64,000 nucleotides of DNA, taken from positions 1-64,000 of the forward strand of contig JAOUHV010000003.1 in assembly GCA_029884425.1 (NCBI GenBank), read 5' to 3'. The DNA is from Gammaproteobacteria bacterium (GTDB lineage Bacteria; Pseudomonadota; Gammaproteobacteria; S012-40). Position numbers and translations under genes: made by a program. Of this stretch, positions 40,901-42,495 are shown in pieces. Position 1 is the stretch's first letter; each line of letters begins with the position of its first letter. Below the pieces are notes generated by a model that saw nothing but the letters and a program-made list of their open reading frames with translations, made no database searches and had not been told where the DNA came from.

Positions 40901-40981
40901 TTATACTGAAGCCAACGGTAGAATTGCAAACAACAGTACGGATAGAACAAACAACGTAATTGCAACGCCAGCATTACTCAC
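40901..40981 (-). CDS. Small single-span membrane peptide, 26 aa
   Basis: On the minus strand GTG at 40981 is preceded by GAGAGGAG (ribosome site about nine bases away) and opens 26 codons to TAA. The product starts MSNAGVAITLFVLSV, one hydrophobic span, and ends with PLASV. A shared terminator with htpG lies 30 bases beyond its stop. The strong ribosome site, clean hydrophobic span and own terminator support a real gene. It is not obviously related to the two peptides at 41446 and 41828. Confidence 0.55.
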   Translation of the reverse strand: MSNAGVAITLFVLSVLLFAILPLASV

Positions 40982-41397: not shown

Positions 41398-41424
41398 AAA
41401 GGGGGCGATGTAATCGCCCCCTTT
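41398..41424. terminator. Bidirectional terminator between ycgL and small peptide gene
   Basis: AAAGGGGGCGAT (41398-41409) and ATCGCCCCCTTT (41413-41424), a perfect 12-bp stem with loop GTA. It stands between the stops of ycgL (+) and the 33-aa peptide gene (-). Confidence 0.85.
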
Positions 41425-41445: not shown

Positions 41446-41547
41446 TCAGGCCAAGGACATGCCGACAAACATCAGCGCCATGCAAAAGCCAAACAGGAAG
41501 AACACGTAAACTGAGTCATCACTGGAAATATCGCGTCTTTGTGCCAT
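41446..41547 (-). CDS. Small membrane peptide, 33 aa (paralogue A)
   Basis: On the minus strand ATG 41547 with GGAGAAA about nine bases upstream opens 33 codons to TGA. A charged N-terminus (MAQRRDISSDDS) is followed by one hydrophobic span and ends GMSLA. It aligns without gaps to the peptide at 41828: D-x2-YV-x3... L... C... VG-x-SLA, about 10 identities in the last 23 residues. The homology between two such short frames, both with ribosome sites and terminators, is good evidence both are genes. Function unknown. Confidence 0.75.
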   Translation of the reverse strand: MAQRRDISSDDSVYVFFLFGFCMALMFVGMSLA

Positions 41548-41570
41548 CTCATTTTCTCCACATTATTGTT

Positions 41571-41810
41571 TCTTGTTGGTTTGTTTGCCAGGTAAGCAAG
41601 CAACCATAAAAGTAGCGGACGTGGCACCAAGAAATCAATAGCAATCCCATAGAATGTTTATGGGTTAACGATAAAAGAAATCTATCGCTATTAGAGGCGG
41701 GGATTGGTTGGGGGCGGTATCTGCAAAGGGAGGAGGATATCCTCCTCCCTTTAATTTCGCTCACATGTCCGGTGATTTCGCTTGTTTACCTGGCAAACAA
41801 ACCAACGAGA
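41571..41810. repeat. 240-bp element with 31-bp terminal inverted repeats
   Basis: The left arm (41571-41601, beginning TCTTGTTGGTTTGTTTGCC) matches the reverse complement of the right arm (41780-41810) at 29 of 31 positions. The arms enclose 178 bases with no supported gene and a perfect 28-base palindrome near the right side. The element sits exactly between the two homologous small-peptide genes. It looks like a miniature inverted-repeat element or the trace of an inverted duplication; no clear target-site duplication was seen. Confidence 0.7.
41725..41752. terminator. Perfect 28-base palindrome (terminator-like)
   Basis: AAAGGGAGGAGGAT (41725-41738) is followed at once by its exact complement (41739-41752), ending TTTAATTT on the + strand. 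The strong GC stem and short T-tract suit a terminator for the 34-aa peptide gene on the minus strand, but its lack of any loop is unusual. Confidence 0.6.
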
Positions 41811-41827
41811 CCAGAGCTTGCAGGCAA

Positions 41828-41932
41828 TTAGGCCAAGCTTACGCCTACGATGCCCAGCACAGCACACATGATTGTCAAGTATGCAACGTACAGCAGGTCA
41901 TGTTTCATAATGTGGTTGTCAGTTTTGCTCAT
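41828..41932 (-). CDS. Small membrane peptide, 34 aa (paralogue B)
   Basis: On the minus strand ATG 41932, with AGGGGAA about six bases upstream, opens 34 codons to TAA. The N-terminal 12 residues are polar (MSKTDNHIMKHD), then comes one hydrophobic span, and the peptide ends GVSLA. It is homologous to the peptide at 41446 (shared D-x2-YV, a Cys in mid-span, VG-x-SLA end). It has its own promoter at 41952-41979. Function unknown. Confidence 0.75.
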   Translation of the reverse strand: MSKTDNHIMKHDLLYVAYLTIMCAVLGIVGVSLA

Positions 41933-41951
41933 TGCAGTTCCCCTGTTTTTT

Positions 41952-41979: not shown

Positions 41980-42495
41980 TGGGTGCGCGGCCCAACATTA
42001 CCAAAAAATAAAAACATAATGCAATAGTTTTTTAGTCAGGAATAACCATTGCATTAATGTGTGTAATTATTATCCAACTGGTTGATTTATTGGAGTAAAA
42101 GAATAACTTATTAATTTCATAGGGAAATCTGAACTGCAGACGGATTTTAACTATCTACCTTGTAAATAAAATGGTTTATAAAAAACTATTTCGTCGATAA
42201 ATTTGTGCAATTCGGAACAGAATGTGCCTGCAGGTTTATATTGATGAAGCCACGAGCCTTAGATGGGCTTAAGGCGTGACTTAGTATGCTATTGGGAATA
42301 ATGTTCTGGTAAAACTCAATAAGTTACGATGTTGATGCAAACGGCTGATGTGATAGAGTTAGGTCAGTGTGATCGGTTAAAACTCTTCTAAAATGTTAAC
42401 GATGTACGTTTGAAAATTGACGGTTCCACTGGAAAATATGAGCCGTTTGGAGCCAGGAATTCAGATAGCTCACCATTAATTTTAAGGACAGACGC
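41980..42495. other. AT-rich gene-free stretch, 516 bases
   Basis: No supported frame on either strand. It carries an inverted repeat, TAATGCAAT (42017-42025) and ATTGCATTA (42048-42056), 22 bases apart, which could be an operator. The part next to 42495 is the leader of the response-regulator gene. Base composition is clearly more AT-rich than the neighbouring genes. Confidence 0.4.

Follow-up and report, generated by a model that had tools for sequence, protein, structure and literature searches.

Cross-complementary untranslated regions of tandem genes for single-span peptides may couple the two messages

The strongest feature of the locus described here, missed by the initial annotation, is complementarity between untranslated regions of two neighbouring paralogous genes, A and B, on the minus strand of the 64,000-nt stretch of DNA that we analysed (the window; Table 1). 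Each gene encodes a single-span peptide. In the B 3′UTR lies a stretch that complements one in the A leader, and pairing between the two would apparently tie the production of the two related peptides together. Few cases of UTR-based regulation between bacterial mRNAs are known; they are one-directional, and those compared here are Gram-positive. For A and B, the compensatory changes between genera suggest that two paralogous messages, each of ∼250 nt, are wired reciprocally. The pair offers a compact natural system in which to ask a simple question: can two coding RNAs act as mutual antisense regulators? It also brings to light conserved single-span peptides of a multi-copy family that is absent from Pfam and NCBIfam and lies below the usual limits of gene finders.

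Table 1. Features of the A and B locus, with positions in the window
Feature	Position	Strand	Basis or remark
Gene A, 33-aa single-span peptide, MAQRRDISSDDSVYVFFLFGFCMALMFVGMSLA	41446-41547	-	ORF; orthologues in 8 genomes; family codon-position bias
Gene B, 34-aa single-span peptide, MSKTDNHIMKHDLLYVAYLTIMCAVLGIVGVSLA	41828-41932	-	ORF; orthologues in 8 genomes
SD-like GGAG of A	41556-41559	-	sequence; equivalents in relatives
SD-like AGGGGA of B	41939-41944	-	sequence; equivalents in relatives
Putative A promoter, TTGATT-N17-CTACTT	41610-41638	-	read by eye
Putative B promoter, TTGCAT-N17-GTAATG	41996-42024	-	read by eye
Pairing arm in A leader, GCTTGCTTACCTGGCAAACAAACCAACAAGA	41571-41601	-	31-nt inverted repeat, 94%
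Pairing arm in B 3′UTR, TCTCGTTGGTTTGTTTGCCAGGTAAACAAGC	41780-41810	-	just upstream of terminator hairpin
Terminator-like hairpin after B, AAAGGGAGGAGGATATCCTCCTCCCTTT	41725-41752	-	perfect inverted repeat, 14-nt arms
Intrinsic terminator after A	41398-41424	-	perfect hairpin and U-rich tail; shared convergently with ycgL
Palindrome CCCATAAACATTCTATGG, candidate operator	41647-41664	-	8 nt upstream of A -35

Both short frames were found where the initial annotation had placed them, with B transcribed first and A second. The peptide of A has a K/R-rich N-terminus and a DD that precedes the span; the N-terminus of B carries HIMKHD, and its gene is nested within a longer TTG-start frame of 58 aa. 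From D-x2-YV to VG-x-SLA the two peptides are identical at 11 of 23 residues, close to the ten or so identities first claimed. The ribosome sites and terminator-like hairpins attributed to both genes are likewise present, as SD-like GGAG (A) and AGGGGA (B) and as a perfect hairpin after each gene, the U-run of the B hairpin being scored on the plus strand by terminator prediction. The -35 element and N17 spacing of the putative A promoter are recognisable in G001, G002, G005, G007, G008 and G011, and the B promoter takes the form TTGCA-N17-GTATG in relatives. The best-scored B promoter, TTCACA/CATAAT (41979-41952), is probably not real, since relatives conserve TTGCAT-N17-GTAATG (42024-41996). 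Transcript ends were placed from the conserved promoter-like spacing and the terminators, from which A and B would each be transcribed as a short mRNA of their own, ∼220-270 nt long.

Single-sequence tblastn searches with A and with B, as the initial annotation had proposed, were run against 56 relatives and reached orthologues at 1.3e-4 (best for A) and 4.4e-10 (best for B), good E-values being confined to genomes of the same family. The ordered B-A pair recurs in seven further genomes of the family (G001, G002, G003, G005, G007, G008 and G011), making with the window's own genome, G000, a set of eight. These belong to different genera, G005 and G011 excepted, and include gammaproteobacterial metagenome-assembled genomes, two of them labelled uncultured Ectothiorhodospiraceae. 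The B-A orientation is constant, the gap is mostly 240-340 nt (G005 has a third copy in between), and SD sites and terminators accompany the pair in relatives as well. Type A conforms to the consensus MAKKRTDIxxDDAxYVxYLAV...LGMSLA and type B to MxxDxHIMKHDxIYVAYLAV...LGxxGxxL. Differences at codon positions 1, 2 and 3 number 96, 37 and 194 in 12 pairwise comparisons, and dN/dS is ∼0.1-0.25 where computable; substitution patterns of this kind mark A and B as protein-coding and subject to purifying selection. The frames were checked for loss of conservation or breakage in relatives and are conserved, so the view that they are genuine conserved membrane-peptide genes stood. Presence within the family of genomes is patchy, with no convincing member of the peptide family in G004, G006, G010 and G012, two of which are >90% complete.

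The two pairing arms are 94% reverse complementary over 31 nt, as reported by a repeat finder, and because A and B share one strand they are complementary as RNA, the B 3′UTR against the A 5′ leader. The arm in the A leader begins ∼2 nt past the putative transcription start and ends 23 nt before the ATG. In the window the complementarity scores 67.5, against a shuffle mean of 19.5 (0/500); the 21-mer core of the arms is found nowhere else in the genome with up to 3 mismatches, and Rfam gave no known RNA element in the window. The same arrangement recurs, with its position conserved, in G001 (17 nt), G007 (25 nt) and G008 (15 nt), and the flanks of the core differ between genera while the pairing is retained. 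The shared core, GTTTRCCWGGYAAAC, is nearly palindromic. A reading of the eight loci suggested that the genomes without this core link A leader and B 3′UTR through other words, and that several also link the B leader with the A 3′UTR, by GGCATTCACG/CGTGAATGCC in G002 and by GCATCACGTAA/TTACGTGATGC in G003, and G003 has an identical 1-nt deletion on both pairing sides. Complementarity of the A leader to the B 3′UTR was detected in seven of the eight pair genomes (not in G011) and that of the B leader to the A 3′UTR in five (not in the window genome, G001 or G007), both directions being detected together in four. A transposon or MITE origin of the 31-nt repeat was rejected: relatives without the repeat have a similar B-A gap, the repeat occupies the same place in four genera and no target duplication was seen. 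Attenuation between B and A was rejected too, as the terminator hairpin lies clear of the arms and the complementarity of B leader and A 3′UTR would be left unexplained.

Complementarity was scored without gaps against a null of shuffled dinucleotide blocks, 500 per cell. For A leader and B 3′UTR the shuffles gave 0/500 in G000, G001, G007 and G008, 1/500 in G003, 2/500 in G002 and 11/500 in G005, with no significance in G011; for B leader and A 3′UTR they gave 0/500 in G005 and G011, 2/500 in G008, 3/500 in G003 and 7/500 in G002, with no significance in G000, G001 and G007, the exact p-values being approximate because most pairs had been seen by eye before testing and the null shuffles dinucleotide blocks. 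The controls that set each leader against its own 3′UTR, or the two 3′UTRs against each other, gave nothing beyond chance in the eight genomes, and the lowest of the 32 control cells was 6/500, for the two leaders of one genome. When partners were permuted between genomes, the sums for own partners exceeded 20000 of 20000 permutations in both directions. Among G000, G001, G007 and G008, both sides have changed at eleven column positions that still form a standard or G-U pair, some of these positions being isolated and next to unpaired ones. Cofolding of the whole predicted mRNAs of the window gave a gain of -34.7 kcal/mol with the own partner vs -5.6 to -11.6 with foreign ones; by row, the gain is highest with the own partner in five of the eight genomes, and G007, G002 and G011 fall narrowly behind a relative's partner. 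Shuffles, permutations, covariation and cofolding thus all find conserved complementarity of a 3′UTR with the leader of another mRNA, and favour pairing of RNA over a DNA operator or chance.

Since the core is nearly palindromic, part of it could also serve as a DNA operator. It is nonetheless quite improbable that the repeats are simply operators for a regulator, one copy per gene. In its favour, the core of clade 1 nearly complements itself and neither copy recurs elsewhere in the genome; against it, the window and G007 have different flanks and each flank is complementary to that of its own partner, the words of the other clade (GGCATTCACG, AAAAGCGCAATCT, CATTCNCGTTAGCG) are not palindromic, and the copies lie within the predicted transcripts, one of the two following the coding region. 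It is very improbable, again, that the complementarity arose as an evolutionary accident without regulatory effect and that the peptides serve as ordinary accessory subunits: weak or absent complementarity in some directions, and in most of the distant multi-copy genomes, would fit an accident, whereas the permutation result in two separate UTR combinations and the compensatory changes would not.

A separate candidate operator is the palindrome CCCATAAACATTCTATGG, which is found at a nearly fixed distance upstream of the A promoter in at least five genomes (G000, G002, G005, G007 and G011) and is nearly unique in each. Genome searches for a regulon returned almost only the locus itself, and that idea was dropped; one additional perfect site, in G002, is not followed by a gene for such a peptide. 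An imperfect palindrome, TAATGCAATAGTTTTT/AATAACCATTGCATTA (42017-42056), overlaps the putative -35 element of B, with a similar one in G001, and is a possible operator.

The peptides extend well beyond these eight genomes. Profile A1, built from the pair-genome members, picked up short orphan frames from further families within the class; two enlargements (A4, A5) brought it to 44 members, in which D11 and L25 are invariant. Like A and B, these have 31-41 aa, a polar N-terminus, an Asp just before a single hydrophobic span and a Leu 14 residues on. Judged by the profiles, A and B belong to a gammaproteobacterial family that had not been named before: single-span peptides of 31-41 residues, probably located in the inner membrane. 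In the class sample, 21 of 369 genomes match at E ≤ 0.003, often with 2-4 copies each, and the family reaches at least six further gammaproteobacterial families; the E-values of later members are not independent because the profiles partly include their relatives, and independent support comes from the repeated occurrence of short frames that have an SD site and, in most cases, a terminator. A phylum sample of 398 genomes yielded only the window's own genome and one weak match within a 466-aa frame. Distant copies sit beside unrelated genes (birA-coaX, a SulP-type gene assigned by eye, uvrD and others). The initial annotation had recognised no known family, and the databases agree: Pfam and NCBIfam hold no family above curated cut-off for A or B, with scattered weak matches for other members, and no PDB chain matched two profiles and one single sequence up to E = 10. 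The earlier proposal that such peptides are accessory subunits of a larger membrane complex is plausible as a prediction, and no conserved neighbour, at the family loci or beside distant members, points to a particular complex. CcoM of Pseudomonas stutzeri, an orphan small oxidase subunit of 36 aa (PMC10433244), is alike in length and as a type of small membrane-complex subunit, whereas the present peptides match no solved chain; a resemblance to CcoM was rejected since the PDB profile searches gave it no support.

Similar UTR wiring appears to exist elsewhere in this wider family, though not as a rule. In G315, a 17-nt stretch that leads up to the start codon of one paralogue and takes in the SD (TAGAGGAGTTTTCTACG) is complementary to the 3′UTR of an unlinked paralogue (p about 9e-5, one of 58 different-gene combinations of leader and 3′UTR tested in the other multi-copy genomes), and the seed is also present in the 3′UTR of a second paralogue. 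The partners are unlinked, which favours pairing in trans. This is the only pairing outside the family of genomes that survives multiple-test correction, so a general rule for distant multi-copy genomes was discarded, and 39 same-gene combinations there gave no p < 0.05.

What might such pairing do? Selection on the open reading frames, together with a predicted pairing element on the same putative transcript, would make each message a candidate dual-function RNA. We suggest that each mRNA is both the message for a peptide and an antisense element against the leader of its paralogue, with mutual repression as the likeliest outcome, a reading to which we give about an even chance. The antisense element in each 3′UTR, just before the terminator, would target the 5′ leader of the other mRNA. 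With both RNAs present, the B 3′UTR would anneal to the head of the A message, and the A 3′UTR of several relatives likewise to the B leader; the duplex would block ribosome loading or a standby site and expose the target to RNase III, so that the more abundant paralogue lowers the other, giving isoform exclusion or balancing. Hfq, which we infer to take part along with RNase III, is encoded in nine of the nine genomes tested. A wider reciprocal circuit, in which the mRNAs of tandem paralogues serve as both messenger and antisense in a toggle or balance, with the same wiring in trans elsewhere (G315 and, more weakly, G007), is a tentative extension.

The sign of the effect is where the main rival lies. 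Only the B-to-A arm was found in the window, and because it ends 23 nt before the ATG without covering the SD, position alone does not dictate repression; its effect could be to obstruct a standby site, to bring in RNase III or to protect the 5′ end. Head-to-tail duplexes could mask 5′ ends from RppH and RNase E, stabilise the partners and balance A and B, for example for a hetero-oligomer. The A arm begins within ∼5 nt of the putative transcription start and stops upstream of the SD in G000, G001, G007 and G008, A and B co-occur at the locus, and the closest published case of pairing between a 3′UTR and another mRNA's 5′UTR, hly-prsA2 as reviewed in PMC7821165, stabilises prsA2, just as vigR stabilises its targets (PMC9217812). 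These precedents come from Firmicutes, however, and there masking of 5′ ends is effective because of RNase J; RNase III can act on a duplex of 28 bp; and pairing covers the SD itself in G003 and G315, which argues for repression and makes protection without repression hard to envisage there. We favour mutual repression and regard mutual 5′-end protection as possible but rather doubtful.

Type I toxin-antitoxin systems such as zor-orz and par/fst also combine tiny hydrophobic peptide genes with short antisense complementarity to a leader. One of the present peptides might by analogy be toxic, the other gene's RNA acting mainly as antitoxin, and the short hydrophobic peptides with their own promoters and terminators, the tandem paralogues and the ∼15-30 nt of complementarity to a leader would suit this. 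We consider it unlikely: there is no separate non-coding antitoxin, the complementary RNA being the mRNA of a coding paralogue from the same strand; purifying selection acts on the conserved peptides of both RNAs, which have kept their polar N-termini and a polar Asp that never varies; several genomes show pairing in both directions; and distant single copies occur without a detected partner.

AzuCR and SgrS/SgrT are dual-function sRNAs that encode small proteins. VcdRP is another (PMC8672173). In each, as predicted for A and B, a small ORF shares a short transcript with a base-pairing segment that precedes an intrinsic terminator; these sRNAs target unrelated mRNAs, whereas the A and B RNAs would target each other. 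In the icaR mRNA of Staphylococcus aureus the 3′UTR pairs with the SD region and represses, RNase III cutting the duplex (PMC3868564). As proposed for A and B, a 3′UTR element there anneals to a 5′ leader, keeping ribosomes from loading and offering RNase III a substrate, but both ends belong to one mRNA rather than to two paralogous ones; such self-pairing is at shuffle level for A and for B in all eight genomes. The Listeria hly-prsA2 interaction, as described in the review (PMC7821165), is one-directional and joins messages for unrelated proteins, in contrast to neighbouring paralogues with both directions in several genomes. The same review describes s-SodF of Streptomyces, a 3′UTR-derived sRNA that represses the isozyme SodN via sodN; here, as in our proposal, the 3′UTR of one isoform regulates the mRNA of the alternative isoform, but as reviewed the action is one-directional, through a processed sRNA, and concerns large enzymes. 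The S. aureus regulatory mRNA vigR likewise acts in trans through its 3′UTR (PMC9217812) but has a long 3′UTR and unrelated targets, paired in their coding regions. Reciprocity between paralogues is seen in none of icaR, hly-prsA2, s-SodF and vigR, as these sources describe them.

Some features of the surroundings may be added. The main recurrent neighbours within the family are ycgL, convergent to A in five genomes (the window, G002, G005, G007 and G011), and htpG, nearby in six. Between htpG and ycgL in the window lies a 26-residue hydrophobic frame with a GTG start, MSNAGVAITLFVLSVLLFAILPLASV (40901-40981, minus strand), which matches no family. Extra copies comprise two A-type in G005 and one unlinked B-type in G007 (L033 10280-10390, L034 10087-10197, L037 7376-7477), and the leader of the G007 copy is weakly complementary to the 3′UTR of the locus's own B (p about 0.01). 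Absent from the window, a modABC-like operon adjoins B divergently in G002, G007 and G011, and was called as a molybdate transporter from sequence alone (L031 1592-4085, L036 6537-8208, L039 1-2213).
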